64,000 nt of DNA, from assembly GCF_000504205.1 (NCBI RefSeq), contig NZ_AZAJ01000001.1, positions 124,001-188,000 of the forward strand, written 5' to 3'. The position numbers and the translations under genes are program-made. Position 1 is the stretch's first letter, and the number at the start of each line of letters is the position of its first letter. A model generated the notes under the pieces. It did no database searches, was not told the DNA's origin, and saw nothing but the letters and a program-made list of their open reading frames with translations. This DNA is from Methanolobus tindarius DSM 2278. Its GTDB lineage: Archaea; Halobacteriota; Methanosarcinia; Methanosarcinales; Methanosarcinaceae. Positions 2,962-21,799 of this stretch are shown here, one piece after another.

Positions 2962-3543
2962 TCAAAGATGAAGAGTCATGTCATCCAGTTCACGCTTACA
3001 ATGATTCTTGATAATATTGTTAAGTCGCATGCGTACTGTTTTCAGACCTTCCTCATCGGTGAAATGAGAAAGCACATCTGCAAGCTGGTCTACCATTAAT
3101 TGATAATCCCTCTCAGTGCCCATATCCCTTAGTTTTTGCATTGCAGACTCTGCAATTTCAGGAGTCCATTCCTCATTAGTATAATAGGTCTTGTCTTCAA
3201 CCTCAAGCTTTTTCCTTGCTACGTCATTATTGACCCTGGCAAAAATAAGCTCCACGGTATGAGGATCACCAACAAATTCATTCATAAACTGCATGATGTC
3301 CATGACAACTTCAAAATAAGGTATTTCCGGATTCTCAGAATCCTTGAAAATCTGAGACAGCTCCAGTCTTATGTTTCTCTCGGCTGGTTTTAGAAGATAA
3401 CTGGTTATATCATCAATAATATCTGCACAATTACCGCCATCCATATTTGAGGATAATTCATACGTATTAGCCGGTAATACGTTAAATTTCCCGTAATACT
3501 TTAATAAATTCTTACGCAAACGCTGGACATCTAAATTTGCCAA
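2962..3543 (-). CDS. Unrecognised helical protein, last gene of the signalling operon
   Basis: The 193-residue protein is soluble, charged and predicted mostly helical, with no motif I recognise. TTG at 3543 is taken as start because AGGTGATATT precedes it at good distance. It follows the GNAT gene by 21 bases on the same strand and ends the run that begins with the CheF-like gene. Acidic and aromatic residues are spread evenly and there is no signal peptide or membrane segment, so a cytoplasmic partner of the complex is likely. Confidence 0.6.
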   Translation of the reverse strand: MANLDVQRLRKNLLKYYGKFNVLPANTYELSSNMDGGNCADIIDDITSYLLKPAERNIRLELSQIFKDSENPEIPYFEVVMDIMQFMNEFVGDPHTVELIFARVNNDVARKKLEVEDKTYYTNEEWTPEIAESAMQKLRDMGTERDYQLMVDQLADVLSHFTDEEGLKTVRMRLNNIIKNHCKRELDDMTLHL

Positions 3544-3564
3544 AATATCACCTGAAATTTTAAG

Positions 3565-4329
3565 TTATTTTAAATCAAATCCCCTGATAAAAGAATTCAT
3601 TTCGCCTTTCAGTTTACTATCCAGAAGTTCTCTGGAACTTTCAAATAATGTCAAAAAATCACTTATATCATCAGAAGTAATGTTTTTTCCCATGTTTCGT
3701 CTGAACTTGAGAGCTTCATAGCTGCCAATCAGCTCAGGCATTACCATTCTTGGATAATCTCCTGCCATTGTTTTCAGCATGTTTCTTGCACGCGGATACG
3801 GAAGCATCAGGTATCCTTTATACCTTGATGAAAGGCCGCTGCTTTTAGGATTAAGTGTCGTAAATCCCAGTTTATTTTTGAAGAAGCGTGCAGCACCAGG
3901 ATTATCTGGCATTGTTATTACATTTGTCTTTAAATGATTTACAGAAGTTGCAAAAAGAAGGCGCCCTATACCAACATGCCTGTGTGCAGGATGGATCTCA
4001 ACACTTCTTAACAGATGAATGGAATGATGCACTACATTGGTCTTTCCACGATAGGTTTTTTCTGTTTCCTCAGATAATTGTTCAAACCTTGCAAAACCAA
4101 GCAGCTTATTGCTGCCTTCTACTGCTACAAATAATGAATGACCTGAACTCAGGGAGCTTTTTAGCAGAAAATCATATGGCATCCCAAACTTGTTATGGAA
4201 ATAATTAAAACCTATATTGTCAGAATTTCCAATATCTATGTCAAGCTGATCCACCGACGAGCCTGCTTCAAGTATACCATAGCTGACATTTCCTGCTACG
4301 TGCAGTATGTTCATACCTTCAATTGACAT
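3565..4329 (-). CDS. GNAT-family N-acetyltransferase
   Basis: The acetyl-CoA site is visible as RSVEIHPAHRHVGIGRLLFA (R/Q-x-x-G-x-G/A pattern RHVGIG) at about residues 109-128, after a beta strand and the LLGFARFEQL segment. The NPGAARFFKNKLGF motif of the later helix is also typical. The C-terminal 80 residues are an extra helical region. The protein transfers acetyl groups from acetyl-CoA to an amine; the substrate is unknown. It lies 16 bases downstream of the 883-residue scaffold gene, so it probably modifies a member of this complex. It resembles the other GNAT at 11017 in layout, including the final GYLML strand. Confidence 0.8.
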   Translation of the reverse strand: MSIEGMNILHVAGNVSYGILEAGSSVDQLDIDIGNSDNIGFNYFHNKFGMPYDFLLKSSLSSGHSLFVAVEGSNKLLGFARFEQLSEETEKTYRGKTNVVHHSIHLLRSVEIHPAHRHVGIGRLLFATSVNHLKTNVITMPDNPGAARFFKNKLGFTTLNPKSSGLSSRYKGYLMLPYPRARNMLKTMAGDYPRMVMPELIGSYEALKFRRNMGKNITSDDISDFLTLFESSRELLDSKLKGEMNSFIRGFDLK

Positions 4330-4345
4330 TTTTAATCATCTGATC

Positions 4346-6997
4346 TCAAACATTTACAGTTCCCGCAACCGAATAGAAAGTGTATCTACCTTTTTTGACA
4401 GTATCCACCATCTGTTCCTGCTCCAGATAACCCATTACAAGAGAGAGTTTTTCAAAGTCTATAGGATAACCACTTGACTTTATCTGTTTCTCAAGCTGCT
4501 TGAGAGTTGCTGAACCTGCAATCGAAAGCTGACCGATTATAACTTCCTCTATAGGCATGTCTTTTAATCGTATGGGCTGTGGCTGCTCAGGAGCTTCCTC
4601 TGTAACGATGTCAGCTTCTGACAATGTCAGTCCCTTTGAATTTTCCAAAATCTCATCAGGACTAAGATCAAGAGACTCGAGATCAAGAGGAACTTCTTCA
4701 GGGAAAACTTCAGGAGATTCAAAATCAACTGGGACTTCAGCAGGACTCAGGTCCAATGAATCAAGATCAAGAGGAACTTCCTCAGGAACAACTTCAGAAG
4801 ATTCAAAATCAACTGGGACTTCAGCAGGACTCAGGTCCAATGAATCAAGATCAAGAGGAACTTCCTCAGGAACAACTTCAGAAGATTCAAAATCAACTGG
4901 GACTTCGTCAGGACTCAGGTCCAATGACTCAAGGTCAAGAGGAACTTCTTCAGCAACAACTTCAGGAGAATCAAAATCAACTGGGACTTCGTCAGGACTC
5001 AGGTCCAATGACTCAAGGTCAAGAGGAACTTCTTCAGCAACATCCTCAGAAGACTCAAAATCAACTGGAGCTGCATCAGGACTCAGGTCCAATGACTCAA
5101 GGTCAAGAGGAACTTCTTCAGCAACATCCTCAGAAGACTCAAAATCAACTGAAATGTCATCGGGACTCAGGTCCAATGACTCGAGATCAAGAGGAACTTC
5201 ATCGGGAACAACTTCTAAGGATCCAAAATCAACAGGCATGCTTTCTGCTTCAGGAACCAGATTATCCTGATCCGGAGCGAAGTCCTCAAGATTCAACGGT
5301 TCAGGAGTGAGTTCAGCTGTTTCAGCCTGAGCCGGTGACTGTTCTTCAAAGATCTGATCAGGTTCAGGAGTGACTTCTGATGGCTCCGGTAAGAACTCTT
5401 CCTGCTCTAATTGATCTGCCTGTGAATTAATATCAGTAGAATCTTCAGGGAAAACGTCTTCAATGGCATTATCCTGCATAGAAACTTCAGTCTGAGGTAC
5501 AATTTGCTCATCAGGATAATCATGAATAAATGATTCCTCATAGCCAGGAATATGGATATGGAGCTGTTCCTGCAGGGAATTAAACATTCCACCTACAACT
5601 ACCTTAAAAGACTCTATTTCGCCTGCAATTGCCATTATTTGTTCTTTGCTTGCATTTGGAGCATCACTTTCCTGCGTAGGAATTGGTGAGTCTGCAAGCT
5701 CTTCACTACTCTTTTCTGCAGCGGCAGCAACAGACTCAGTAAAGTCCAGTTCTTTTAGTGTACGATTCAGTTTGGTTATTGCTTTGGTATGCAGATTCAC
5801 AGCCTTTGCAATGCTTTTTATCTGCTCCATGATCTCTTCAAGCTGTTGTGTATTGGAAGCAGCTTCTTCAAGCTGGTTATTCTGAAGCTCTGCCATAAAG
5901 CTAACATTTTCTGTAAGATTGTCCAGCTCACCTTTGTGTTCGGTTAAATCTGAAACTATCCTGTCAAGATGTTTTTCGTGAGCAACGACCTTTTCAATTG
6001 TATATTCCCGACTTCCGGTCTCAACAAAAGAACGGAAATCCTGGGAATTATAATTAGGAACATACTGGGACAGCATTTTAAACAGTTCAACATAAGTGCC
6101 ATGTATCTGCTTTACAGAAACGATCTTGGAAGAAATGGCATCTGAAAGTCCCCTGACAATAAAAGCCTCATTCTCGAACCTGAAAAAGTCAACACCTGCA
6201 CTGAACTCACGTACGCTGTCCCTTGCAGTCTCTACCATATCAAAAGATTCACGTTCACCATAAATGGCTATCATGGCATTTAAAATATCATTCAGGGTCT
6301 TAGCATAAGTGATTTCCAGAACATCAGAAGGCACTTTTGTAGGGTCCAGTGATTCGGCATTTACAGAATCCTCTGCCTGGACAACACGCCTGAGTCTCTT
6401 GGAAAAAAGATCGAAATCCTGCCTCAGTCGTTTATAATCAGATTCATGTGCTTTAGAATACAGATCACTTTCTAAAGTGGATAGCTTATCACCACTTGAT
6501 TCAAGTTCATCAGTCATTTTTTTCTGCATATCGTTGAACTTTTCTTCAAACATGAATAAACGAGTTTCAAGCTCATTGTAACGACTTTCCGCATCTTCAA
6601 GCCTTGTAACAAGTTCAGAATTTGCAAGTTCCAGATCGGACTTAATATCTGAAGCTACATGAATACCTTTATCCCTCTTTTTTCGAAGGACTGAATTATC
6701 ATCCACAATTATAAGGGACTTGGCACCTGCCGGAACAGGTCTTTCTGAATGCGCAGAGCTGTCATCCATTATGTTTTCACTGTTGCCTATTTCTGCATCT
6801 GCCTTACCGGTCTGCTTCAAATTATCATCTGTAATATCTTCAACGTAAGTTTTTGGGTCTTCCATTGACCCTGTAGAATCAGAAGCCTTTTCGTCTTCGC
6901 TAATCTCCATGTCATAATCCCGTGAGCTGCTTTGTGAAACTTCTGTATCCATAATTTCAGTATCACATTTTTCCATTGTGCATATTTCGTCATCCAT
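4346..6997 (-). CDS. 883-residue coiled-coil scaffold with 28-residue acidic repeats and C-terminal winged helix
   Basis: Layout: acidic disordered N-terminus (1-115), coiled coil (about 125-205), a conserved-looking helical domain (about 215-345, containing RESFDMVETARDSV and FFRFENEAF), a second coiled coil (345-440), an acidic Pro-rich linker, seven tandem repeats of 28 residues (598-782, core PLDLESLDLSP), and a winged-helix-like domain (about 808-883, ending KKGRYTFYSVAG). There is no signal peptide or membrane span. The start ATG has AGGTGAG five bases upstream. It looks like an elongated scaffold binding several partners through its repeats. It is not ArlCDE; I see none of their signature region. 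The family is unknown to me. Confidence 0.8.
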   Translation of the reverse strand: MDDEICTMEKCDTEIMDTEVSQSSSRDYDMEISEDEKASDSTGSMEDPKTYVEDITDDNLKQTGKADAEIGNSENIMDDSSAHSERPVPAGAKSLIIVDDNSVLRKKRDKGIHVASDIKSDLELANSELVTRLEDAESRYNELETRLFMFEEKFNDMQKKMTDELESSGDKLSTLESDLYSKAHESDYKRLRQDFDLFSKRLRRVVQAEDSVNAESLDPTKVPSDVLEITYAKTLNDILNAMIAIYGERESFDMVETARDSVREFSAGVDFFRFENEAFIVRGLSDAISSKIVSVKQIHGTYVELFKMLSQYVPNYNSQDFRSFVETGSREYTIEKVVAHEKHLDRIVSDLTEHKGELDNLTENVSFMAELQNNQLEEAASNTQQLEEIMEQIKSIAKAVNLHTKAITKLNRTLKELDFTESVAAAAEKSSEELADSPIPTQESDAPNASKEQIMAIAGEIESFKVVVGGMFNSLQEQLHIHIPGYEESFIHDYPDEQIVPQTEVSMQDNAIEDVFPEDSTDINSQADQLEQEEFLPEPSEVTPEPDQIFEEQSPAQAETAELTPEPLNLEDFAPDQDNLVPEAESMPVDFGSLEVVPDEVPLDLESLDLSPDDISVDFESSEDVAEEVPLDLESLDLSPDAAPVDFESSEDVAEEVPLDLESLDLSPDEVPVDFDSPEVVAEEVPLDLESLDLSPDEVPVDFESSEVVPEEVPLDLDSLDLSPAEVPVDFESSEVVPEEVPLDLDSLDLSPAEVPVDFESPEVFPEEVPLDLESLDLSPDEILENSKGLTLSEADIVTEEAPEQPQPIRLKDMPIEEVIIGQLSIAGSATLKQLEKQIKSSGYPIDFEKLSLVMGYLEQEQMVDTVKKGRYTFYSVAGTVNV
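4651..5205 (-). repeat. Seven in-frame 84-bp tandem repeats within the scaffold gene
   Basis: Each 84-base unit encodes 28 residues (consensus EEVPLDLESLDLSP followed by DEVPVDFESSEVVP). Units 4-6 are nearly identical at DNA level and units 1, 2 and 7 are more diverged, which points to recent internal expansion. The last unit is partial. Confidence 0.9.
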
Positions 6998-7010
6998 AGC
7001 ATCTCACCTG

Positions 7011-7781
7011 TCACACGAAGGACTCAAGTTTGTGTTTAATATCCGGTATCCATTCGGCTTCACACACATCCGCTACATAATCCCCATGTAGCGGACGAAT
7101 CTGGTCCCTGATAATCATTTCAACAAGAAGCGGCCACAGGTCTTCAGTCATCCATTTAGGTGAAGAGGCAATTTCGTTAAAAGCCATTGCAAGTACCTGC
7201 TCAACTTCTCCCCTGCCCATGACACCTGTGATCTTCTCTTTGATGTCAGCAAGTATTTCCATATTCTTCTTGTATTCGGAAGACTGGGTATACATCTCAT
7301 CAAACACGATTTTTGCCAAGATACGCAATTCACTTGCCACTTCTTCAGGATAAGTTGCAAGCTGCTCTTTTGTCATTGGACGCTGTTCGAAAACATGACG
7401 TATAACAGCTTTGGCAATTTCAATTTTATCCATATTTTCAGCAAGATCGGCTTTTCCCGTAAACAGGGATATTAAAAGAGCTCCGCGTCCCACTGATGAG
7501 AAAATAACTGTGCCAAACTCGTATTCAATTACTGACTGTTTCAGCCCCATTTCAAGCTGCTGGCTAACATGCAGCAGGTTGTTGCTGATAAGATTGGTCA
7601 GCTCAAATATTTTAGGGCCAATACTCTCCGGTATGTAGGATGCATAGATCTTTCCGTCAGCACCGGCAAAGAGCAGTACATCTACATCACTGGATTGGTG
7701 TGTCCTTTTAAGCTGTGCGACCAGAGCAAACTTCAAAAGGGAAACATCCTCAAGGTCATCTTTTGTTTTTCTAACCGACAC
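7011..7781 (-). CDS. Roadblock/LC7-like domain protein
   Basis: The first 115 residues fit the roadblock/LC7 fold: a strand DVDVLLFAGADGKIYASYI, a long helix, then VIEYEFGTVIFSSVGRGALLISLF. Archaeal and bacterial roadblock proteins regulate small GTPases or organise signalling and polarity complexes. The remaining 140 residues are helical and not recognised. GTG at 7781 is chosen because GAGGTGG lies seven bases upstream; a TTG at 7796 is weaker. It sits 19 bases after the KaiC-like gene and 13 bases before the scaffold gene, which argues for one complex. Confidence 0.7.
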   Translation of the reverse strand: MSVRKTKDDLEDVSLLKFALVAQLKRTHQSSDVDVLLFAGADGKIYASYIPESIGPKIFELTNLISNNLLHVSQQLEMGLKQSVIEYEFGTVIFSSVGRGALLISLFTGKADLAENMDKIEIAKAVIRHVFEQRPMTKEQLATYPEEVASELRILAKIVFDEMYTQSSEYKKNMEILADIKEKITGVMGRGEVEQVLAMAFNEIASSPKWMTEDLWPLLVEMIIRDQIRPLHGDYVADVCEAEWIPDIKHKLESFV

Positions 7782-7800
7782 GTCAACCCACCTCAATTAC

Positions 7801-8871
7801 TCATTGGATCATTTCTTCCAGTTCGCTAAGATTGTCTATATCAATAAGCGGTTCATCTTCCTGTGAAGGCTCTTCTTCAGGTACTATATCTTCATCCTGC
7901 TGCATGGAACCCGTAAGTTCAGAAACTTCCAGTGCTGCAGCTTTTGTGGAGGATTCTTCCCTGCGCTTCTCAAGTTCTTCCCTGGTAATGGCATCATTAA
8001 GACCCTGAGACTCGAAGAATATCTGTAGTGTTTCCTTCGGGGAGAATGGATATGACCAGTTTTCCTTGACATATACAAGCCTTTCAAGCATTCTCTCACT
8101 GGCACCCAGATCAGCGGCAGTGCGTATGGCTTTGTCAAAGACATCGTCATACTTGCGTACATCTTCTGCAGATACCAGAGGCGTAGTTCTTACAACCACA
8201 CCAACACCACGGACAAAAATGTAAGGATAAACTTCCTCACCATGCCTGGTTGCACGCATTTTCACAATTTCAAGAGCCCTGTTAAAAGCTCCGCCAATTG
8301 GCCTGTATGTCAGGTGAACTGCACCATCGGACATGTAGATAGGAATCAATACATCCTCACCGATAGTCTCACCGGGAGATGCGTGTTCTTCTGTTGTAAT
8401 AAGAACCGGACCAAGCTGCTTTAGTGTGTAGAACAGTTTTGTGATAATCTCACGCTGTTCCTGTTTGTCCTGTATCGCCCATATAAGCGGGGTCAACGGA
8501 TCAATAATCACACGCGTCTTTACTGCATAGTTCTTATTTGCCTCCACTAGGGCTGGAAGCTGCTCATCAACAAGTTTGACAAAATCCTTACCTTTTGAGT
8601 GGAAGAAGAATAATTCTTTTTCATAATACTGATCAAGGTTAAATCCAAGCATTTTTGCTTCTCTCATTATTTGCTCAGGTGGTTCTTCCATACTAATGTA
8701 GAGACCATTCTCTCCATGCTCAAGCCCGTAATTCAGGTATTGCATCGCAAAGGTTGATTTTCCGGTACCACTGGAACCTACAACCAGGAGGGTTGAATTA
8801 TCACGTACACCTCCTTCAATTACTCTGTCAAGACCTGCAATTCCGGTTGGTATCCGTGTTTCGCTGCTCAT
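7801..8871 (-). CDS. KaiC-like RecA-superfamily ATPase
   Basis: The N-terminus TRIPTGIAGLDRVIEGGV is diagnostic of the KaiC family. Walker A GSSGTGKST is at residues 33-40, catalytic glutamates are in SMEEPPEQI, and Walker B is RVIIDPLTPLIW. The RecA core ends near residue 235 and is followed by a helical extension and an acidic tail (about 310-356). Single-domain KaiC-like proteins act as ATP-dependent hexameric switches in archaeal signalling. The ATG has GGAGGAATT upstream inside the preceding gene and overlaps it by four bases, so LSm-like and KaiC-like proteins are translationally coupled. Confidence 0.88.
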   Translation of the reverse strand: MSSETRIPTGIAGLDRVIEGGVRDNSTLLVVGSSGTGKSTFAMQYLNYGLEHGENGLYISMEEPPEQIMREAKMLGFNLDQYYEKELFFFHSKGKDFVKLVDEQLPALVEANKNYAVKTRVIIDPLTPLIWAIQDKQEQREIITKLFYTLKQLGPVLITTEEHASPGETIGEDVLIPIYMSDGAVHLTYRPIGGAFNRALEIVKMRATRHGEEVYPYIFVRGVGVVVRTTPLVSAEDVRKYDDVFDKAIRTAADLGASERMLERLVYVKENWSYPFSPKETLQIFFESQGLNDAITREELEKRREESSTKAAALEVSELTGSMQQDEDIVPEEEPSQEDEPLIDIDNLSELEEMIQ

Positions 8872-9287
8872 TTAAATTCCTCCGGAAGTATTACCTCATC
8901 GAGGCTGCTTAATTCACTAATTTCTGTAATCTCAAGATTTTCTGCAAACTCATCCAGTCCTTCGATAACGGGTTGAGGATCTGGAAGCTCTGACCCATTT
9001 TCAATTGAAAGAATGAGAGATTCATTACTGTCAAAAGGAAAACTCTTCTCAATATAGACCGATTCTATTGAGTGACCCATGACCAGCATATAGTCACTAA
9101 GTTCTACCCATCCGGTTTCATTTTTTTTAACAACATTTTTAAGAATCACATTGTTATTTTTCCGGTCTATTTTTTCACATTCACCTCTGTAATGTGAACT
9201 GTTTGTAATCACCCTCACATTCTCACCTACAAATTCATCCAGATGAGAATATGGCGAAACTGATCTGTATCCTGCCATAAAAATCAC
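8868..9287 (-). CDS. LSm-like small-domain protein
   Basis: Residues 15-80 fit the Sm fold: HLDEFVGENVRVITNSSHYRGECEKID (Sm1-like, with the D-x-x-N position as DRKNNNVIL) and a later LVMGHSIESVYI strand in the Sm2 position. The rest is an acidic tail. LSm proteins form rings that bind RNA, but a fold match does not prove RNA binding here. The GTG at 9287 overlaps the preceding stop (GTGA) and has GGAG five bases upstream; ATG 9278 is an alternative. Its place between V4R and KaiC-like genes suggests an Sm-fold adaptor in a protein complex. Confidence 0.6.
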   Translation of the reverse strand: MIFMAGYRSVSPYSHLDEFVGENVRVITNSSHYRGECEKIDRKNNNVILKNVVKKNETGWVELSDYMLVMGHSIESVYIEKSFPFDSNESLILSIENGSELPDPQPVIEGLDEFAENLEITEISELSSLDEVILPEEFK

Positions 9288-10201
9288 TGCTGCTCCTTCT
9301 TCATTTTAGAAAGAAGCTCGGCAAAGCTGTCTGTCTTTTTAGCTTCTTCCTGTAATTTTGCGGTTTCTTCAGATACAGGTGGTTTGGGTGCAGCCGGTGA
9401 GGAATTATCAGGCACCTGTATCTTTTTGGCCATTTCACCAAAAGCGCCACCAAAGGTGCTGTGAGAATCAGCTATGGAAGAAAGTTCTTCCTGAAGTTTC
9501 CATGGAGGGTCAAATACCTTCTCCTGTACCGGCATGTTATTGGCAAACTGCATGTAAGCGTTACCAATTTCTGACAGACGACCGCTGTCCAGTAATTTAT
9601 AAATTGTAAGTGTTCGTACCCTTTCCCTGAGTTCAGTGTCATCAACAGGCGGTCTGATACCGGATAAGATCTTCTTATCGTACTCATCAAGCATGACCTG
9701 ATATGCAGATATAGGCTGGAGGTCAACTTTGAATTTGCAAACCGGATCACCGTTCTTTATGCACTCGGTTTCCTCAACGGAGCATTCAAGTTCAAGGTCT
9801 TCCCTGAAGAACCTGTGAAGGGCATCGGTTGTGGCTACACATACTTTCTGGTTTTGAAGTGCAGGATAGAAATTACATACGGGATTGTTCGGAACTGCAA
9901 ATATGTAATGCATCGGTGCATACGAAATAAGCTGCATGTTTCCAAGTCCGATATCCTTGAAGAACTTCATGTGGAACTTATAAAGTGAAGTTCCCCTTAT
10001 CAGCTCTATTGTGCTTGCTTTAAGGAACTTTCTTGTTTCATTCCACGGGACTTTGGCTTTTGGGAACTTGTCACTAATATTCTGCTGGAGTTTCAGCAAT
10101 GCTCCGAAAGCCCCCATGGACTGCCCGAAACTTCCATCCATTGCCGGAGGCGGACCGCCGGCTGAATTTGTCATAAACGGAGGGAGACCAGGATCTGCCA
10201 C
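9284..10201 (-). CDS. V4R-domain (4-vinyl-reductase-like) sensor protein
   Basis: After a Pro/Gly-rich start, residues 40-175 match the V4R pattern, a small-molecule binding domain: a helix-strand unit LKASTIELIRGTSLYKF, then the Cys signature ECSVEETECIKNGDPVCKFKV (three cysteines within about 19 residues). V4R domains bind hydrocarbons or metal-linked ligands and serve as sensors in bacterial and archaeal regulators. The C-terminal part (180-305) is helical with a Lys/Glu-rich tail. It starts at GTG behind GAGGGGG. It overlaps the LSm-like gene by four bases and follows the CheF-like gene by 34. Confidence 0.65.
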   Translation of the reverse strand: MADPGLPPFMTNSAGGPPPAMDGSFGQSMGAFGALLKLQQNISDKFPKAKVPWNETRKFLKASTIELIRGTSLYKFHMKFFKDIGLGNMQLISYAPMHYIFAVPNNPVCNFYPALQNQKVCVATTDALHRFFREDLELECSVEETECIKNGDPVCKFKVDLQPISAYQVMLDEYDKKILSGIRPPVDDTELRERVRTLTIYKLLDSGRLSEIGNAYMQFANNMPVQEKVFDPPWKLQEELSSIADSHSTFGGAFGEMAKKIQVPDNSSPAAPKPPVSEETAKLQEEAKKTDSFAELLSKMKKEQQ

Positions 10202-10235
10202 TTATAATGCCCCCTCTGTGGTCATTAGATTCATT

Positions 10236-10823
10236 TCACATCATCTCCTTGATCTGCTTTATACCCTGTTCAGTAAGTTTTCCTGAAGTGTCACACATGC
10301 TCTGCTCTCTCAGATTCTTGAAACTGGCTGCAAGGGTGTCATTATCGACACCAATGAAAAATGTCAGTTTCTGCAAATCGTTCACACCTGTATAAAGCAT
10401 GTAAAGGAGCTTTTTATCAATGTCAGAAAGTGATTGTTTCTTTGGAGGTGTGCCACACATTGGTTGCAGATAAGCTTTGAGCGTATTGATAACGGCTTCA
10501 TTACCTGCAAGTAAAGCAGTCGCCGGAGCTGTGGCTCCTTCTACTACTGATGATGCCTGGAGATAATCTATCATAAGGATGTGTGAAGTCCCGATTGTAC
10601 GCTGGGCTTTTACACGGATTGGATCTGAAACTTCCCTGCCTACCATACTTACACTTTTCAAAGGAATTGTTAACCATCCCCCGCCTTCTGAGAACCACAG
10701 GTTAAGGTTGGTAAGATAGAGAACACCTTTCTCCCAGTTGTCAGAGTAAAGGGAATTACCCATCATCACTGCTTTATAAATATAACTAAGATCAACTTTT
10801 GCGATACCCTGCTCTTGAGCCAT
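10236..10823 (-). CDS. CheF-like protein (archaeal taxis adaptor type)
   Basis: The 195-residue protein has a beta-rich first half (EKGVLYLTNLNLWF, WLTIPLKSVSMVGREV) and a C-terminal HTH-like half (DIDKKLLYMLYTGVNDLQKL, then KLTEQGIKQI). This is the layout of archaeal CheF (PF04283), which links CheY to the archaellum motor. The match is by pattern only and could be a distant relative. It is the first gene of the eight-gene run, with a TATA element about 30 bases upstream. No CheA, CheY or CheW gene is in the window. Confidence 0.5.
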   Translation of the reverse strand: MAQEQGIAKVDLSYIYKAVMMGNSLYSDNWEKGVLYLTNLNLWFSEGGGWLTIPLKSVSMVGREVSDPIRVKAQRTIGTSHILMIDYLQASSVVEGATAPATALLAGNEAVINTLKAYLQPMCGTPPKKQSLSDIDKKLLYMLYTGVNDLQKLTFFIGVDNDTLAASFKNLREQSMCDTSGKLTEQGIKQIKEMM

Positions 10824-11892: not shown

Positions 11893-12960
11893 TTAAATAT
11901 GACCCCAATACGGCTCCAGCCTGGCTTTCAGGAGGGACAGATTATTATTAAACTCTTTTCTGGTTTTAGCATGTCTTGATGCAAGCAGATCAATCTGATC
12001 AACCTCATCCTTAATATTTTCAAGTCCGGCCAATGCACGCAGGACAACGGATGCAAGAAGACCAAGATCATCATGATAGCCACCCTCCAGCAGGGTTACA
12101 ACGTTCCATTTACTTGCAAGTTTAAATATTATTCTATAGTAACCATCAACAGTGAGGTTCAGCTTGGCCAAAGGCTCTTTATGGTAAGCATCAAAGCCGC
12201 ACTCCAGAATAACCAACTGCGGGTTGAACTTGTCAAGTATTTTTTCAGCAACCTCATCATAAAACAGGGAATATTCAGGATTACCTGATTCAGTAGGCAT
12301 TTCCATATTTATGCAATATCCAATTGCAGGTCTCACACCAATATCTTTGATGAAACCCTTAAACGGATAAAGTGTTTTCTGATCCTGATGCATAGATATG
12401 CACAAAACTCTGGGATCGGCTTCAAAAGCAGCATAGGTACCATCCGAAGCATGTGCATCAATATTGATTATGGCTATCCTTTCAAGGCCTTTTTTCTCAA
12501 GCATATATCTGGCCAGAATACCTGAATTGTTGAATATGCAGAACCCATTACATGAATCAGGACCTGCATGGTGTCCCGGCGGACGTATCAGTGCATAAGC
12601 ATGCCTGCACTCACCTGATATAACCAGGTCCCCGGCTTTCAGAACACATCCCAATGCATGAAGAGTCACATCAAACGAAGATGGACAAACATATACATCA
12701 TTACCAGGACTTTGCCGCGGATCTCTTGTACATGCTTTAATGAGATCTACATACTCCCTTGTATGCACCCGTAATATATCCATTACAGATGCAGGGATAG
12801 AATCATAAAAACGGAATATTTCACCATCAATAAGACCGCTACTTTCAAGATATTCCAGTATATTCTGGATTCTTTGAGGATTTTCAGGACACGGATAGCC
12901 ATTCAATAAAGAATCATGCAAATGATGGTTTTTATTGAAAGTGATACCTACCCGGGTCAT
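11893..12960 (-). CDS. Histone deacetylase / acetylpolyamine amidohydrolase family protein (copy 2)
   Basis: All catalytic elements are present: RPPGHHAG (126-133), the metal ligands D168 and H170 in NIDAHASDGT, D257 in ECGFDAYH, and the catalytic Tyr295 in LLEGGYH. The 355-residue length is normal for the family. It removes acetyl groups from lysine or polyamines using zinc. Its ATG shares one base with the stop of the longer deacetylase upstream (TGATG), and AGGAGG sits just before it, so the two are coupled. It precedes the GNAT gene. Confidence 0.9.
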   Translation of the reverse strand: MTRVGITFNKNHHLHDSLLNGYPCPENPQRIQNILEYLESSGLIDGEIFRFYDSIPASVMDILRVHTREYVDLIKACTRDPRQSPGNDVYVCPSSFDVTLHALGCVLKAGDLVISGECRHAYALIRPPGHHAGPDSCNGFCIFNNSGILARYMLEKKGLERIAIINIDAHASDGTYAAFEADPRVLCISMHQDQKTLYPFKGFIKDIGVRPAIGYCINMEMPTESGNPEYSLFYDEVAEKILDKFNPQLVILECGFDAYHKEPLAKLNLTVDGYYRIIFKLASKWNVVTLLEGGYHDDLGLLASVVLRALAGLENIKDEVDQIDLLASRHAKTRKEFNNNLSLLKARLEPYWGHI

Positions 12961-14987
12961 CAGGCCTCCTGTGATAACAGAGCCGGATGATGACTTTTTG
13001 TTTCTGAAACCTTTTTCTGTAACTCTGCAAATATCTGTTTCTGTTGTGTCTGTTTATAGCTTGATATTTCCTGTTTGTCCTGAACCGGATTTGGACGTCC
13101 ATGCAGAGAACTCAAAACACTATGGCACAACTGGCCATTAAAATCATGATAGCCACCTTCAAGAAGGAAAACAACAGGTCCTTTAAACACCGAATGCAGT
13201 TTAGCTGTCATCTGGTGATATGCATCTGAATCCAGTGCCAGGCCGATATTCATCTCATGATAATGTGCATCAAAACCACAGCTGAGTACTATAAAATCCG
13301 GATTGAAATGTTCGACCATGGGGATGACAGTCTCATCAAAAGCATACATATATTCCTCATTACTTGAACCTGCAGGCATTTCCACATTCATTGTATACCC
13401 TTTGCCGGCATTCTCACCTGTTTCGTTACTGAAACCTTTCCTGGGATAGAATCCATGTGGATCACGATGAAGAGAAATAAGCATCACAGTCGGGTCTTCA
13501 TAGAATATTTCCATGGTACCGTCACCTGCATGAGCATCCCAGTCAAGTATCAGCACTTTACCAACTTTCCTGTTATGCTGAAGATGCCTTGCAAGCACTG
13601 CTGCATTGTTAAAAAGGCAGAAACCTCCGTATTTCTGGGAGCTTGCATGATGTCCGGGAGGACGTGTCAGGACAAAAGCATGGGTGAATTTTTTGTCCAC
13701 AAGCAGATCCCCGGCCTGTATAGCTGCACCAGCAGCAGTTTTTGCGATATCATAAGATCCTGAAGTCATGTATGTACTGTCCCCAAGGAAACCTCCCCCG
13801 GATCCAGAATATGATTTTACGAAAGAAACATAATCCTTACCATGAACCCTGTGCAGATCTTCTTCATTAGCAGTCTGGAAATCGCTTATCAACGTGCATG
13901 TGCCATCAGTAAAAACCTTGTTCTTTTCAAGATACCACATGGCTTTGATTATACGTTCAGGTTTCTCGTGAGTAATAATAGAAAGTAAGGATGCATCATG
14001 TTTCATATGGTCCTCACTGTAAAGGAAAGCAATGTTCACCGGACCTGCAGGTTCATTAGAAACAGCCTTTTTTGCTGCAACAGTGGTTTTTGAAGCAGGA
14101 CTTGCCGGAGGGACCACCTTAGAAGCTGGAGGTTTAGGAGCAACTTTAGCCGGCTGTGCTGATGCAGGTTTTACAGAAGAAACTGGAACCTGTTTTCCTG
14201 CATTAATATTAACCCCGGAAACAGAAGGATTAGCAACATTATTTGCAACATTTTCTGATTGTGGTTTTGCCGTTGTTTGCGGTTTTGTCTGTATAGAGGA
14301 TGCTGCTTTAGGTACAGATTTATCTGCATGAGCCTGTATATCTGACTTCTGTACAGTCTTTGCAGGATGGGGAGGAAACTCTTTTTTTGGATCAGGTACC
14401 TGTTGAGCAGGTTTTACCTCTGCTGACTTTTTGTTAACTGTTTTTGGAACTTGTGGCTGCAAATCTGAAGTTTGAGAACTACCTGAATGCTGGTAAGAAG
14501 AAACTTTGGGAACCTTCGGAGTTTTTTGCAGAATCTCGGATACGGCTTTTGAGTAATCCTTTTCTTCATCCTTAACATTACTTTTCTCTTCATCCATTTC
14601 AATTTCAACCGACTGATAGGAAACATCATCAAAAGCACCGGACAGAACATCAGGTACTTTTGCTTCAAATGAAGGGAATGTAGAAGGCTCAATTTGCATA
14701 TCCTGAGTATCAGAATAAGTTATAGTCTCATCACCAGCCTCAATAAAACCTTCACCTATGACAATCATTTTTTTGGCTTCAGTACCTTTTTCCTGATTGC
14801 CGGCTTTTTCATCCACAAAACCTGATTTAATAAGATCAAGGATAGAATCCTTTTCTGAAAGGTCAATACTACTTTTACCAGGCTTTTCACCATCAAAATA
14901 AGACAAAAATGCCTCGTTGAGCTTTTTCATGACATCAGAAGATAGCTGTTTATTTTTTTCCTCGTTTTTTTCTGCATCTGAAGACAC
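12960..14987 (-). CDS. Histone deacetylase-like enzyme with 320-residue disordered N-terminal extension (copy 1)
   Basis: The second half is a full class II-type deacetylase domain: RPPGHHASSQ, DWDAHAGDGT, SCGFDAHYHE and LLEGGYHDF, so zinc ligands and catalytic Tyr are kept. The first 320 residues contain a short helical cap (KKLNEAFLSYFDGE) and a long acidic region turning into a Pro/Ala/Lys/Val-rich linker, absent from ordinary members. The linker probably tethers the enzyme to a partner. GTG at 14987 is favoured because GGTGA lies five bases upstream; TTG 15002 is possible. Copy 1 and copy 2 look like tandem paralogs. Confidence 0.88.
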   Translation of the reverse strand: MSSDAEKNEEKNKQLSSDVMKKLNEAFLSYFDGEKPGKSSIDLSEKDSILDLIKSGFVDEKAGNQEKGTEAKKMIVIGEGFIEAGDETITYSDTQDMQIEPSTFPSFEAKVPDVLSGAFDDVSYQSVEIEMDEEKSNVKDEEKDYSKAVSEILQKTPKVPKVSSYQHSGSSQTSDLQPQVPKTVNKKSAEVKPAQQVPDPKKEFPPHPAKTVQKSDIQAHADKSVPKAASSIQTKPQTTAKPQSENVANNVANPSVSGVNINAGKQVPVSSVKPASAQPAKVAPKPPASKVVPPASPASKTTVAAKKAVSNEPAGPVNIAFLYSEDHMKHDASLLSIITHEKPERIIKAMWYLEKNKVFTDGTCTLISDFQTANEEDLHRVHGKDYVSFVKSYSGSGGGFLGDSTYMTSGSYDIAKTAAGAAIQAGDLLVDKKFTHAFVLTRPPGHHASSQKYGGFCLFNNAAVLARHLQHNRKVGKVLILDWDAHAGDGTMEIFYEDPTVMLISLHRDPHGFYPRKGFSNETGENAGKGYTMNVEMPAGSSNEEYMYAFDETVIPMVEHFNPDFIVLSCGFDAHYHEMNIGLALDSDAYHQMTAKLHSVFKGPVVFLLEGGYHDFNGQLCHSVLSSLHGRPNPVQDKQEISSYKQTQQKQIFAELQKKVSETKSHHPALLSQEA

Positions 14988-15020
14988 CCATATCACCCAC
15001 AATATAATTGTTTTACAAAA

Positions 15021-15956
15021 TTACTGAACCTGCAACCATACAGGATCAAGCACACCGATGTACTTATTCCCTCCGAAATTGAATACCACAGTTGGTTCTT
15101 CAATGGAGGCCCAGCCTGAAAGTTTTGGTTTCACTACCCATGTACGTTTCACAGTTTCCCCAGGAGCTATCGTATCAAAGAAAAGGTTGATCTTTTCAGG
15201 CTCAACGGAATTTGAAAACTTAGCTTTGATAGCAAAATCATTGTATGGCTGCTGCGTGAAGTTCTTAACCCATACATCAACCGTTGCTGGTTTACCAATT
15301 GTAATTTGCTGTGAAGGAACAAATTTTACATATTGTGCAATGGTTTCTTTCTGTATTGGAGTTGCACCTGAAACATCAATTGTCCTGCTGTTTTGTTTTT
15401 TCTTGGTTTTGTCTCTCTTATCTATATATAGACCAAGACCAAGCATAATTACAGCGCCAATAAATATAAGCGGAGCATTGTTTGCAATGACATCTATTTT
15501 TGTTGTTTCAACTTCAACATCAACAACTTCTGCATTGTCCAGTGTCAAAGGAACAGTGAATGAAACCCTGGTAACTATCCATCCAAGCTGGCTGTTCTGA
15601 AGTGTGAAATATATAGGAACAACACTAGTTCCGCCGTCTGAATTTGACACGGTACACTCAGCTTCAACAGCTGCTATATTTTCACTGATTTCCTGGGAAA
15701 CAATGTTAATATCTTGAATTGAACCCGGCTCTATTCCTTTATTGCTGAATATCATTTTAATACTTGCAACTGCAAGGAAATCCTTACCTGTGTACATATT
15801 AAAAGCCGTATTGAAATCTCCATCATTAATGGCAGTTAAAAATGTGGTCACTGTTTCAGGTACTTCTTCTTCTGGATTATTGCTGACACAACCACTACTA
15901 TACACGCTAATCAGGATAACAAATACTAGGATAACTGAACAATACTTGTGTTTCAT
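15021..15956 (-). CDS. Membrane-anchored lipoprotein with CARDB-like domain
   Basis: A signal peptide ends in the lipobox YSSGC (Cys23). Residues 30-150 resemble small NTF2/DUF4878-like lipoprotein domains (FLTAINDGDFNTAFNMYTG). One membrane span lies at about 165-183, followed by a lysine-rich segment and a CARDB-like beta domain (about 205-311, VDVWVKNFTQQPYNDFAI). The Lys/Arg-rich stretch after the span would put the second domain in the cytoplasm, though CARDB domains are usually outside, so topology is uncertain. It lies 119 bases after the EF-hand-like gene, same strand as the archaellins. Confidence 0.7.
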   Translation of the reverse strand: MKHKYCSVILVFVILISVYSSGCVSNNPEEEVPETVTTFLTAINDGDFNTAFNMYTGKDFLAVASIKMIFSNKGIEPGSIQDINIVSQEISENIAAVEAECTVSNSDGGTSVVPIYFTLQNSQLGWIVTRVSFTVPLTLDNAEVVDVEVETTKIDVIANNAPLIFIGAVIMLGLGLYIDKRDKTKKKQNSRTIDVSGATPIQKETIAQYVKFVPSQQITIGKPATVDVWVKNFTQQPYNDFAIKAKFSNSVEPEKINLFFDTIAPGETVKRTWVVKPKLSGWASIEEPTVVFNFGGNKYIGVLDPVWLQVQ

Positions 15957-16075
15957 TTAAGCACCTGAGATTATCAAATATTATTATTATACAATTATAA
16001 TATAGACATAGTACTTAATTTTATTTGTAGTAATTGTATATATTGCTTGTTAGAAAAAAGAAAGGAAGATAAAAA

Positions 16076-16744
16076 TTAGAATAAAGAAGGAAAACGGGAC
16101 AAATCTGCAATAAACTTTGATTTGCCGGTTTCAATCATAACGGCATATTCAAATGTCTGTCTTCCATCAACAATAAATGAGCGGATACCGCTACGCCCTT
16201 CAATTAACTGCCTTCCTGAATCACAGGAAGTCTGAAGTTCATCAATGCCGTCAATATCTGTCACCAGCATTTCAGAAGGAAGATAAATGCTCATTTTTTC
16301 AATTGCAGGATGCCCAATAACCCATATACTATGCGTACCAGATTTCAATGATTCTGGCGCGCCATAAATAATATTAGTTGTGACTTTTATCTGCGAAGTA
16401 TTTACATTACCTTCAGCACCTGAAACCTGCATATCAAAGGAATCCAGAGAAAGAACTGTATTTCCATCATCTATCAAAACATAACCCAAATATTGCCCTG
16501 TGCTGTTTCTTTTGAATTCATCAACAAAACTCTCAACTTCCTTTTGACTTACGATGCTATTGTTATCAGAATCAAGACCCAGCCTGAAGGCTTCAGCATC
16601 GATGCCCGTATACATTTCATTAATTGTAAAATCAATTGACGTATCGTGGACCTGCAACTCATTTGTGAAAGTTGCGTCTGCCGATGAAAGTGAAATTGAT
16701 GACAAAATCAGTATCAAAGATATTAATAGAATTTTTTGTGACAT
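16076..16744 (-). CDS. Exported protein with EF-hand-like calcium loop
   Basis: A clear signal peptide (SQKILLISLILILSSISLSSADA) is followed by a beta-rich domain of about 195 residues. The loop LDSDNNSIVSQKEVESF carries D, D, N, S and E at EF-hand positions 1, 3, 5, 9 and 12, with a helix after it. There is no second membrane segment, so it may be secreted or cell-wall bound. ATG 16744 is chosen because GAGGG precedes it. It is 39 bases downstream of an archaellin gene and probably in the same transcript. Confidence 0.65.
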   Translation of the reverse strand: MSQKILLISLILILSSISLSSADATFTNELQVHDTSIDFTINEMYTGIDAEAFRLGLDSDNNSIVSQKEVESFVDEFKRNSTGQYLGYVLIDDGNTVLSLDSFDMQVSGAEGNVNTSQIKVTTNIIYGAPESLKSGTHSIWVIGHPAIEKMSIYLPSEMLVTDIDGIDELQTSCDSGRQLIEGRSGIRSFIVDGRQTFEYAVMIETGKSKFIADLSRFPSLF

Positions 16745-16783
16745 AGAATCCCTCAAAAAAGTTAAGGTGAATATTATTTCACC

Positions 16784-17560
16784 TTAAGGATATAATTGTA
16801 TCGTTTCTCTGGTACCGTACGATGAAGGAGTTACAAACTCAGCCATGGTAGTAGCTCCGGCCTCAGGAGTCATCACTATTGCAACCGTAGTGCGTGGTTC
16901 TAGATCCAGATTAGAATCTTTCTGGTTACCACTGGTTGTTACACCATCTATTGTTGTATAAGAAGTGTCACCATCTGACACAACAGAAACATAAATAGTC
17001 ACCAGGTCACCTGTATTCATTATAGGATTACCCTGAGAGAATGAAACGTCTTCATCTCTTATCTTCTGCACAGTAAAGAAGTATCTGCCATTTGCACCTG
17101 GAGGACTTTGAGTGTCCGTCAGTAAATGACCCAGATTTACACTTGCAGTGTTAGAAGATGAGAAGTTTTCCATGGCACTACCGTATGTTTTATCGTTATT
17201 GGCATATATCAGGTCATTTGTGTTAGTTCCATCAGTTATTGTAATAATTAACTGATTGAGATCCACAGGAGAACTTCCAACATTAAGACCCACTTTTACT
17301 TTAAGAAGGGACATATTAGAAGCCATCGTAGATCCGGTTTTTGCACGTACACCTTCAATGCTTTTGACGATCAGATTAGATGATACTTCCTGTGTAGCCT
17401 GCTTACCGGTTGACTGTGCCTGTTGCTGAAGTGTGCCGGATGTCTGGATAAGCACAGATGCAGCTACAGCAGCAATCAGCACCATAGCTATGAAAATAAT
17501 CAAAGTACCTATACCCACCTGGGCAGCATTGTCTTTTGTAAAGCTGGCATTAGAGATCAT
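16784..17560 (-). CDS. Archaellin (distal copy of first pair)
   Basis: The class III signal region is followed by the diagnostic [22 protein letters not shown] segment and [20 protein letters not shown], the conserved N-terminal helix of archaellins (ArlB/FlaB) packed in the filament core. The rest is the beta-rich outer domain ending EFVTPSSYGTRETIQLYP. Cleavage by the prepilin peptidase would fall before AQVGIG. It follows the next archaellin by 53 bases. It is closest in length and in the variable loop to the copy at 20165. Confidence 0.95.
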   Translation of the reverse strand: MISNASFTKDNAAQVGIGTLIIFIAMVLIAAVAASVLIQTSGTLQQQAQSTGKQATQEVSSNLIVKSIEGVRAKTGSTMASNMSLLKVKVGLNVGSSPVDLNQLIITITDGTNTNDLIYANNDKTYGSAMENFSSSNTASVNLGHLLTDTQSPPGANGRYFFTVQKIRDEDVSFSQGNPIMNTGDLVTIYVSVVSDGDTSYTTIDGVTTSGNQKDSNLDLEPRTTVAIVMTPEAGATTMAEFVTPSSYGTRETIQLYP

Positions 17561-17613: not shown

Positions 17614-18423
17614 TTATGGATAGAGCTGTACCGTTTCCTTAACACCGTATGATGAAGGTGCTACAAAATCAGCTGTCGTTGCTGCACCGGATTCTGGAGT
17701 CAGGACAATGTTTACAGTGGTTCTCGGAACCAGATTCAGTCCTGATGTTTTCAGAGCAGAAGTTACAGTAGTAGTCCCAAGATAGTCATAATCTGTTGAT
17801 ACTGCAGTACTGGATGTTGTTGCAATATAAACTGTAATCAAGTCACCAGTATTCATCACAGGATTGCTCTGTGAGAATGAAGAATCTTCATCACGAATCT
17901 TTTCTACAGTATAATAGTGATCAGAATTATTGAAAACACTGGGTGACGACGATGCATTTTTTAAAAGAGTGGCCAGATTTCCAGATGCAGTTGATCCAAA
18001 GTAGTCCATTGCTCCATCAGTACCGCCTGCAGAAGCATATGATTTTGTATTTCCTGCATAAACAAGATTGTTTGCAGTTGTACCATCAGTAATTGAAATT
18101 ACTACCTGATTTACATCTACAGGGGAACTGCCAACATTAAGACCTACCTTGAGTTTCAGAAGGTCGATTGTTTCTGACATAACAGTTGCGCTGTCCTTTG
18201 CACGTACACCTTCAATGGTCTTGACCATCAGGTTAGATGATACTTCCTGGGTTGCCTGTTTACCGGTTGACTGAGCTTTCTGCTGAAGTGTACCGGAAGT
18301 CTGAATCAATACAGCAGCTGCAACTGCTGCGACCAGAACCATGGCGATGAATATGATAAGAGTACCAATACCCACCTGAGCTCTGGTATTTTTTTTCAAA
18401 TATAATGCGTTGTTTGCTTTCAT
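17614..18423 (-). CDS. Archaellin (proximal copy of first pair)
   Basis: [18 protein letters not shown] marks the processing site and core helix; the C-terminus VKETVQLYP is shared with the copy at 20990, to which it is nearly identical over the first 90 residues. ATG 18423 has a strong AGGAGGAT ribosome binding site; an upstream in-frame ATG (18444) does not. Promoter, leader hairpin and a 27-base upstream motif are shared with the 20990 copy. It builds the archaellum filament together with the other copies; which one is major cannot be told from sequence. Confidence 0.95.
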
Positions 18424-18438
18424 GCATATCCTCCTATA

Positions 18439-18454
18439 ATCCAAATATATGGAT
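18439..18454 (-). promoter_or_regulatory. Leader hairpin before the archaellin ribosome binding site
   Basis: ATCCA and TGGAT flank a six-base AT spacer, directly upstream of the AGGAGG. The paralogous leader at 21815-21838 has a longer form of the same element. It may tune translation or mark the start of the transcript. Confidence 0.4.
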
Positions 18455-19372: not shown

Positions 19373-19727
19373 TGATATTGATGTCGAACTTGAACAGGCA
19401 GTGGCAGAATTCTATCAATCATTGGGAATTCACCAAGGACCAGGAGATATTCAATACAGACTTATCTTGAAAGTCCTTGGAAGGAATGAAGGAAAAATTA
19501 CAGAATTCTCAGAAATCAGGAAATACACCGATCAGTTTGCAGACAAAGGCAGCATTGGAAGCAAAATGAAAACCGTGTTCCAGCTCGAAGGACTGGTTGA
19601 AAAAGTGAAACGTGGCGGCTATGTTATTACTGATAAAGGAATAACTGCTTCTAATTTCCTCAAAGACAGCACTGCATTCTACAAGAAAAACAAGAGAATG
19701 GGCGAGATTATTGAGAGAATGCCCTAA
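19365..19727 (+). CDS. Winged-helix-like regulator coupled to the 7-TM protein
   Basis: Residues 20-95 fit a winged helix: IQYRLILKVLGRNEGKI, a second helix FSEIRKYTDQFADKG, a recognition helix SKMKTVFQLEGLVEK and a RGGYVITDKG wing. The N-terminus is acidic. The eight-base overlap with the 7-TM gene indicates translational coupling. It may regulate the divergent archaellin genes, but the second 7-TM copy has no such partner. Confidence 0.65.
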   Translation: MSDDIDVELEQAVAEFYQSLGIHQGPGDIQYRLILKVLGRNEGKITEFSEIRKYTDQFADKGSIGSKMKTVFQLEGLVEKVKRGGYVITDKGITASNFLKDSTAFYKKNKRMGEIIERMP

Positions 19728-20164: not shown

Positions 20165-20944
20165 TTATGGATACAGCTGTACATTTTCTTTGGTACCATA
20201 TGAAGATGGCGTGATAAAGTCAGCTGTTGTAGCTGCACCAGATTCTGGCGTCAATACGATACTAACGGCAGTTCTTGGACCTACAACAAGACCAGTATCA
20301 TCCTGTTTACCGCTTGTTGTGGTATCACCTATTGAAGTGAATCCTGTTGCACCTGATGCTACTGTAGAAATATAAACAGTTATAAGGTCCCCAGTATTCA
20401 TTACTGGTTCTCCCTGAGTAAAAGATCCATCTTCATCACGAATCTTCTCTACAGTGAAGAAAAACTTACCGTTAGCACCAACGGTTCCAGAATCTGTCAA
20501 AAGTTTTCCAAGATTTGTACTTGCAGATGCAGATGATGAGAAATTTGCCATTGCGCTTCCATATGTACGATCATTATTTCCATATATCAGGTTATTAGTA
20601 GTAGTTCCATCAGTTATAGAAATAACAACCTGATTTACATCTACAGGAGAACTTCCAACATTAAGACCTACTTTTAGCTCCAGCAATGAAATATTGGCAG
20701 CCATATTAGTAGCCGAAGATTTTGCCCTAAGACCTTCAATGGTTTTAACCATCAGGTTAGATGAGACTTCCTGAGTTGCCTGTTTACCGGTTGACTGAGC
20801 TTTTTGTTGCAAAGTACCTGATGTTTGAATCAGAACTGCAGCTGCAACTGCTGCAACCAGAACCATTGCAATAAAGATAATCAGAGTACCTATACCCACC
20901 TGCGCGCTTGTATCTGATTTCATGAATTTACCATTTGCTTTCAT
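20165..20944 (-). CDS. Archaellin (distal copy of second pair)
   Basis: [20 protein letters not shown] marks the processing site and core helix; the C-terminus reads SSYGTKENVQLYP. The protein is about 257 residues and pairs best with the copy at 16784 in variable-loop sequence (NNDRTYGSAM against NNDKTYGSAM). ATG 20944 is favoured by GGAGT upstream over the ATG at 20953. It lies 45 bases after the next archaellin. Confidence 0.95.
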   Translation of the reverse strand: MKANGKFMKSDTSAQVGIGTLIIFIAMVLVAAVAAAVLIQTSGTLQQKAQSTGKQATQEVSSNLMVKTIEGLRAKSSATNMAANISLLELKVGLNVGSSPVDVNQVVISITDGTTTNNLIYGNNDRTYGSAMANFSSSASASTNLGKLLTDSGTVGANGKFFFTVEKIRDEDGSFTQGEPVMNTGDLITVYISTVASGATGFTSIGDTTTSGKQDDTGLVVGPRTAVSIVLTPESGAATTADFITPSSYGTKENVQLYP

Positions 20945-20989
20945 ATTTATCAACTCCTAAAAATGTGCGAAGGAATCGCACATTATTCA

Positions 20990-21799
20990 TTATGGATACA
21001 GTTGTACAGTCTCCTTCACACCATAGGAAGATGGAGCTACAAAGTCTGCTGTTGTTGCTGCACCAGACTCAGGAGTAAGAACAATGTTTACAGTGGTCCT
21101 CGGAACCAGATTCAGTCCTGAAGTTTTCAGACCTGAAGTTACAGTAGTAGAACCTAGATAATCATAGGTACCTGAAACCGCAGTGTCAGAAGTTGTAGCA
21201 ATATATACAGTAATAAGATCACCAGTATTCATTACAGGATTACTCTGAGAGAATGAAGAATCTTCATCTCGAATCTTTTCTACAGTATAGTAATGATCAG
21301 AATTATTGAATGTGCTGCTTGCTGTTGTATTTGCAGTTAACAGATATTGTAAATTAGTAGATGCAGTTGATCCAAAGTTATCCATATCACCATTGTCCTG
21401 ACCAGTTGTTGCATATGATTTTGTATTTCCTGCATAAACAAGATTGTTTGCAGTTGTACCATCAGTAATTGAAATTACTACCTGATTTACGTCTACAGGG
21501 GAACTGCCTACATTAAGACCGACCTTGAGTTTCAAAAGGTCAATTGTGCTTGACATAACAGTTGAGCTGTCCTTTGCACGTACACCTTCAATGGTCTTGA
21601 CCATCAGGTTAGATGATACTTCCTGGGTTGCCTGTTTACCGGTTGATTGCGCTTTCTGCTGAAGCGTACCGGAAGTCTGAATCAATACAGCAGCTGCAAC
21701 TGCTGCAACTAGAACCATAGCGATGAATATGATAAGAGTACCAATACCCACCTGAGCTCTGGTATTTTTATTTAAATGTAATGTTTTGTTTGCTTTCAT
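20990..21799 (-). CDS. Archaellin (proximal copy of second pair)
   Basis: It is a close paralog of the copy at 17614: same start MKAN, same NTRAQVGIG site, same length (269 residues) and same VKETVQLYP end; they differ mainly in the loop around residues 125-150. The ribosome binding site is GAGGAGGAT. The near-identity suggests recent duplication or gene conversion. Confidence 0.95.

Follow-up and report, generated by a model that had tools for sequence, protein, structure and literature searches.

The eight-gene cluster at positions 2962-10823 of the window, a stretch of 64,000 nucleotides that forms part of the 3.15 Mb, single-contig genome of Methanolobus tindarius DSM 2278, is on balance likely to be a CheF-KaiC-V4R-roadblock chemotaxis output module specific to one archaellum lineage of the Methanosarcinaceae. 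In the accepted view CheF is the adaptor by which the chemotaxis signal reaches the archaellum. It is well supported that the cluster acts where chemotaxis meets the archaellum, and that its first gene, which is CheF-like, stands in for CheF. This gene is homologous to CheF, the synteny of the cluster is conserved, archaellin and che genes are linked to it, and it is lost together with CheA and excludes canonical CheF. Because a reduced CheF supplants the usual adaptor and the cluster is lost together with chemotaxis, it is probably an undescribed and more elaborate steering module.

The eight open reading frames follow one another on the minus strand, from 10823 down to 2962, in the order CheF-like, V4R, LSm-like, KaiC, roadblock-like, scaffold, GNAT and a 193-residue protein; two pairs of neighbours overlap by 4 bases, and the others are 4, 13, 16, 21 and 34 bases apart. 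On the 5' side of the CheF-like gene is a 193-base AT-rich gap with T-runs after the neighbouring GNAT-like gene and a TATA-like stretch, because of which the eight genes may have a transcript of their own inside a longer archaellum locus. The tight packing on one strand and the overlaps and spacers had been described correctly in a first-pass annotation made from the sequence alone, which also noted one visible promoter. It had also taken the eight genes as the whole operon; they do form one conserved unit, but the array continues upstream to the archaellins. A GNAT-like gene, two HDAC-family genes and a lipoprotein-like gene follow in the same direction, 15-18 bases apart or overlapping by 1 base, and beyond them come a gene for a secreted protein and then four archaellins.

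As a single sequence the CheF-like protein scores 17 bits against PF04283, under the 25-bit gathering cut-off of this Pfam family. Alignment with hhalign of a profile of 12 orthologs to a profile of nine canonical CheF proteins gives a probability of 97.5 and an E-value of 5.4e-12 over residues 21-194 (159 columns), covering the second PH domain and the C-terminal domain of CheF and leaving the first PH domain unmatched; on the 277 positions of the canonical profile the match begins at about position 100. The best match to the ortholog profile in the PDB is CheF itself (7ovp, E 0.028), on the C-terminal domain, and tblastn with the gene as query finds CheF in the che operons of genomes G148 and G091 (E 3e-9 and 2e-6). 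An AlphaFold2 model, with a mean predicted local distance difference test score (pLDDT) of 71, has a PH-like domain followed by a winged helix (wHTH). Among the chains listed in a structure comparison, 7ovp is the one aligned across both parts of the model, with a Z score of 10.6 and a root-mean-square deviation of 14 Å, so that the parts, but not their arrangement, agree. By these comparisons the gene encodes a half-size CheF, in which the second PH domain and the CheY-binding C-terminal domain are kept and the first PH domain is absent. It thus has the sequence homology, the C-terminal wHTH-like domain and the linkage to che and archaellum genes expected of CheF, while lacking the two N-terminal PH domains and a PF04283 score above the gathering threshold. 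In canonical CheF, phosphorylated CheY has been shown to bind the C-terminal domain, and the PH domains have been proposed to contact ArlCDE (PMC9126983).

The roadblock protein turned up in 37 of the 186 genomes of the order that were searched, in five genera, its nearest named relative being that of Methanolobus vulcani PL 12/M (98% identical). Extending the search with a profile to 393 genomes of the whole phylum gave no clear homolog outside the family and one marginal match only. The V4R profile adds two partial genomes, giving 39 carriers in six genera: Methanolobus, Methanomethylovorans, Methanosalsum, Methanohalobium and two more, the sixth having at least the CheF-V4R pair. The named relatives include one metagenome-assembled genome labelled Methanococcoides (with Methanomethylovorans) and an unclassified one from the Methanosarcinaceae. 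The order CheF-V4R-LSm-KaiC-roadblock-scaffold is kept in nearly all of the loci compared; the GNAT and eighth genes are present in many of them, and the second GNAT-like gene and an HDAC gene lie upstream wherever the contig extends far enough. Since the order recurs in 36 loci of five genera, with core proteins 55-98% identical, its conservation is far beyond chance. The roadblock protein (70-99% identity), KaiC (68-92%) and the CheF-like protein (58-96%) are the best conserved. The first-pass annotation had allowed that the order might break down in relatives, and it does not.

The che operon of M. tindarius itself, at about 682-694 kb, reads cheY-B-A-C-R-C-C-D-C and CheF is absent from it. 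The motor operon, arlCDE-F-G-H-I-J at about 923-930 kb, is without archaellins, which sit instead beside the cluster. A search with PF04283 alone undercounted canonical CheF, missing it in G095, and a purpose-built profile of canonical CheF was therefore used. With this profile 17 of the 112 genomes of the family were found to have full-length CheF, none of them among the 39 carriers (hypergeometric P 3e-4). The best match of the profile in nearly all carriers is the cluster gene, the exceptions being G126, where that gene is cut by the contig end, G138, where it is deleted, and G145, where it is present though below the profile threshold. The idea that carriers do without Che and use the cluster in its place was rejected, as they have CheA and a che operon.

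Motors were divided into types 1 and 2 by ArlH score, the fragments in G098 and G185 being assigned by judgement. Among the 52 genomes with a type-1 motor only, the cluster is present in all 36 that have CheA and absent from 14 of the 16 that do not, the two that hold it being 72-73% complete (cluster by CheA 36/2/0/14, Fisher P 7e-11). Five genomes that combine the two motor types encode canonical CheF and lack the cluster. A tree of ArlH-I-J, some nodes of which are weakly supported (0.11 inside Methanolobus and, further down, 0.71 and 0.73), has six maximal groups without the cluster. These correspond to four to six losses, each coinciding with loss of the carrier-type CheA. Among the groups are Methanolobus G129 and others that we take to be Methanohalophilus and Methanococcoides. 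In G129 CheA, the cluster and HDAC matches are all gone while the archaellins and an intact motor operon are kept (ArlI and ArlJ about 90% identical), and both CheA and the cluster were lost even though che lies apart from the cluster in its relatives. The two loci can also be joined: the che operon is directly downstream of the cluster in two species of Methanosalsum, and in M. natronophilum the CheF-like and LSm-like genes have been relocated beside arlCDE and archaellins. The adjacent archaellins, the co-loss with CheA and the exclusion of canonical CheF bear out the link between the CheF-like gene and the archaellum that had first been proposed from its sequence.

Two further observations concern the distribution and setting of che genes. 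G080-G083 and several genomes of the Methanosarcina group have a type-2 motor and CheA with neither canonical CheF nor the cluster. The M. tindarius che operon also encodes, between cheC and cheR, a 706-residue protein that by eye is FtsA/actin-like (L120:11733-13853), with no counterpart in those che operons of Methanosalsum and Methanohalobium that were compared.

Several points weigh against the reading as an output module. The CheF-like gene scores below the Pfam cut-off for CheF and is without one PH domain. The P values ignore shared ancestry, and on the tree the association shrinks to about four to six events. The complete Methanolobus genome G138 keeps CheA yet has lost the CheF-like gene, with V4R and KaiC damaged: at L056:7060-9384 one deletion has removed the CheF-like gene together with the beginning of V4R, and a small one with a frameshift has damaged the N-terminus of KaiC. 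Either this copy is decaying, or the assembly is in error, or the module is not absolutely required. Many type IV pilus loci have KaiC and roadblock genes beside them (PMC4858521), so that the presence of these genes alone is weak evidence of a role in switching.

Most of the domains named in the first-pass annotation were confirmed, with KaiC, V4R and GNAT over their Pfam cut-offs; the CheF-like and LSm-like proteins fell below theirs and the roadblock-like protein had no Pfam match, but these three assignments are backed by profile comparison. The eighth protein has no known domain and gave no Pfam or PDB match. The V4R protein is barely over the cut-off for PF02830 (31.3 bits against 31). 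Its V4R region resembles that of MsvR, a methanogen regulator, though by itself it matched nothing in the PDB; five cysteines in the domain are invariant in orthologs, which would be compatible with a metal site, and the protein ends in a conserved basic tail, SFAELLAKMKK. Residues 14-76 of the LSm-like protein match Sm D3 (E 8.9e-4), a match to the Sm fold over the whole barrel. The KaiC-family ATPase (PF06745, E 3.5e-47) has a single RecA domain with an intact Walker A motif, GSSGTGKS, a Glu (EE) pair, and a variable linker that ends in a conserved acidic C-terminal tail, LIDIDDLSELEE. This tail and that of the V4R protein look like possible docking motifs. For the roadblock-like protein the sole PDB profile match is the Roadblock/LC7 protein 9jue (E 3.6e-4), and with this one match and none in Pfam its membership is weak. 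By analogy V4R may provide a redox or ligand input, KaiC an ATP switch and the roadblock-like protein a link to a GTPase; no GTPase is encoded in the array.

Other identities for the KaiC protein were considered and rejected. A circadian Kai clock does not fit its single RecA domain, and neither KaiA nor KaiB has a match among the cluster proteins. Nor is it ArlH, for which it scores 54.6 bits against an NCBIfam cut-off of 215, and replacement of ArlH or ArlCDE by KaiC and the scaffold is at odds with the complete arlCDE-F-G-H-I-J operon elsewhere in the genome. At a locus unlinked to the cluster (L101:7958-11650, about 1.522-1.526 Mb) a 232-residue KaiC-like ATPase, a 400-residue CheF-like protein and a PAS protein are encoded side by side. 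The CheF-like protein there looks like two PH-wHTH units in tandem, and since its gene adjoins a KaiC gene the pairing of CheF with KaiC recurs.

The scaffold, variable in length among orthologs, contains coiled coils and, at about residues 188-350, a conserved helical domain, and its C-terminal segment is winged-helix-like. Its AlphaFold2 model has a pLDDT of 79, rising above 90 in the core helical domain, for which comparison with the PDB gave no fold match (best Z 4.2). The protein had been called a repeat scaffold. The coiled-coil scaffold stands, but the tandem repeats (84 base pairs x 6.9), which are acidic, lineage-specific and confined to close relatives, are a local expansion, and what is conserved is the coiled-coil and helical domain and the C-terminal segment. 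The GNAT protein scores 33 bits against PF00583 (cut-off 20.7) and has an RHVGIG motif. Its upstream GNAT-like paralog scores 14.6 bits, under the same cut-off, and matches it by blastp with an E-value of 6e-8; its gene is syntenic in all five well-covered genera. The two HDACs, both with PF00850 and active-site motifs, are paralogs of each other, and the shorter is absent from the equivalent place in Methanosalsum and Methanohalobium. These two genes, the second GNAT-like gene, the archaellins and the che operon lacking CheF lay outside the first-pass annotation.

The lipoprotein-like and secreted proteins (15021-16756) lie between the archaellins and HDAC in carrier genera and belong to no Pfam family. 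A protein with several transmembrane segments and a wHTH protein are encoded between the archaellin pairs (18581-19727), and such genes are also found beside archaellins in Methanosalsum natronophilum (L128). At the other end of the cluster, 420-2407 holds the genes of a MinD/ParA-family ATPase (420-1154) and a coiled-coil wHTH protein and, convergent with them, a second KaiC gene; synteny of the three is kept in Methanolobus and Methanomethylovorans.

Table 1. Genes of the cluster and of the array upstream of it, in window coordinates
Feature	Position	Strand	Basis
CheF-like adaptor, 195 aa	10236..10823	-	one PH-like domain and CheF C-terminal winged-helix domain
V4R protein, 305 aa	9284..10201	-	PF02830, ortholog alignment, orthologs in 39 genomes
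LSm/Sm-like small protein, 139 aa	8868..9287	-	profile match to Sm D3
KaiC-family ATPase, 356 aa	7801..8871	-	PF06745, Walker A, EE pair, alignment
Roadblock/LC7-like protein, 261 aa	7011..7796	-	PDB profile match 9jue; helical C-terminal half
Scaffold, 883 aa	4346..6997	-	alignment, tandem repeats, AlphaFold2 model
GNAT acetyltransferase, 254 aa	3565..4329	-	PF00583, RHVGIG motif
Accessory protein, 193 aa	2962..3543	-	alignment, synteny; present in 20/36 loci
GNAT-like paralog of 3565-4329, 286 aa	11017..11877	-	blastp to GNAT; synteny
HDAC-family deacetylase, 355 aa	11893..12960	-	PF00850 E 1e-77, active-site motifs
HDAC-family deacetylase, 680 aa, low-complexity N-terminal half	12960..15002	-	PF00850 E 4e-86, motifs, synteny
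Lipoprotein-like protein, one transmembrane segment	15021..15956	-	syntenic in carrier genera
Secreted protein, 226 aa	16076..16756	-	syntenic in carrier genera
Archaellin	16784..17560	-	PF01917 E 7e-30
Archaellin	17614..18444	-	62% identical to 16784-17560
Archaellin	20165..20953	-	sequence; PF01917 match G000:C1:144216-144905
Archaellin	20990..21799	-	sequence

From these features we infer how the output module might work, including all the binding events and the roles of KaiC, V4R, the LSm-like and roadblock-like proteins and acetylation. The half-size CheF would probably use its single PH domain to dock on the ArlCDE switch ring and its C-terminal domain to receive phosphorylated CheY. The LSm-like and roadblock-like proteins and the coiled-coil scaffold probably compensate for the lost first PH domain and for a long dimer strand that also appears to be lost. 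The KaiC ATPase and V4R could add a second input to the switch decision, from ATP state and from a ligand or redox cue, and the GNATs and HDACs might tune the switch by reversible acetylation. In E. coli CobB and acetylation control CheY, a precedent for deacetylase control of chemotaxis output (PMC2883070). The specific proposal, in which KaiC and V4R form a complex with the reduced CheF and reversal integrates phosphorylated CheY with an energy or redox signal at a level set by reversible acetylation, is put forward tentatively, as a possibility that stands somewhat below even chances.

The main rival explanation is that the cluster organises the cell pole, placing the chemoreceptor array and the archaella there, with KaiC, the roadblock protein, the scaffold and the MinD-like ATPase as a platform and the CheF-like protein as a tether to the motor; a role in switching would then be unneeded. 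The synteny of the MinD/ParA-family ATPase, coiled-coil wHTH protein and second KaiC downstream of the cluster in Methanolobus and Methanomethylovorans would suit such a platform, as would the long coiled-coil scaffold, and haloarchaeal CheF is found at the poles through ArlCDE (PMC9126983). The MinD-like gene is, however, not at the equivalent place in Methanosalsum or Methanohalobium, and archaellated relatives without CheA, which should still need to position their archaella, are without the cluster. Overall this explanation seems unlikely, though it deserves to be kept in mind.

Less likely again, and rather improbable, is control of expression, in which the HDAC/GNAT pairs and winged-helix proteins would regulate transcription of archaellin and che genes through chromatin acetylation and the CheF-like protein would be a divergent regulator. 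HDACs and GNATs do directly adjoin the archaellin genes, and the CheF-like protein and the scaffold have winged-helix-like ends, but the winged helix of CheF is a known binding domain for phosphorylated CheY (PMC9126983), a set of KaiC, V4R and roadblock proteins with conserved tails points to a protein complex, and the co-loss tracks CheA and not the archaellins. That the cluster is a KaiC signalling hub of the sort proposed for archaea, only loosely tied to chemotaxis, its linkage and co-loss reflecting a shared lifestyle, is very improbable: KaiC and roadblock genes often neighbour type IV pilus loci (PMC4858521) and a KaiC gene also adjoins the unlinked tandem CheF-like gene, but the cluster holds the sole short CheF-type gene inside the same tight operon, canonical CheF and the cluster never coexist, and the che genes are contiguous with it in Methanosalsum.

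An entire clade that has an archaellum and a full che operon thus carries a truncated CheF in place of the canonical one, amid a conserved set of KaiC, V4R, roadblock, LSm-like and acetylation genes. This makes it possible to test directly which part of CheF switching cannot do without. It makes the role of archaeal KaiC hubs testable too, with a predicted partner and a measurable output in swimming reversals, and would give archaeal HDAC/GNAT pairs a candidate non-histone role. If true, a switch of KaiC, V4R and reduced CheF would differ as a chemotaxis output from both bacterial FliM and canonical CheF.

Among known systems, archaeal KaiC-like signalling hubs were reportedly proposed by Makarova, Galperin and Koonin in 2017. 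The cluster resembles them in that a KaiC ATPase is encoded together with roadblock and further small signalling proteins close to a machine of the type IV pilus type; it differs in its association with CheF, V4R, LSm-like, HDAC and GNAT genes and in being inherited along with CheA. A literature search, outside which the 2017 paper lay, found no CheF-KaiC-V4R operon or half-size CheF described. The cluster KaiC shares the RecA superfamily with ArlH, at 24% identity, whereas the true ArlH is encoded in the separate motor operon. Control of CheY by CobB in E. coli (PMC2883070) differs in that the cluster has HDAC-family enzymes and GNATs. KaiC, roadblock and MinD-like genes near archaeal pilus loci have been noted earlier (PMC4858521). 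With CheF itself (PF04283; 7ovp, 7od9) the cluster gene shares a homologous second PH domain and C-terminal domain and the linkage to che and archaellum genes, and it complements the absence of the canonical gene. It is without the first PH domain and has a shorter C-terminal strand region, and whereas canonical CheF is encoded within the che operon, the cluster gene shares its operon with the genes of seven further proteins. Subject to the 2017 paper on KaiC hubs, the cluster is rated as a variation on the known CheF output system.

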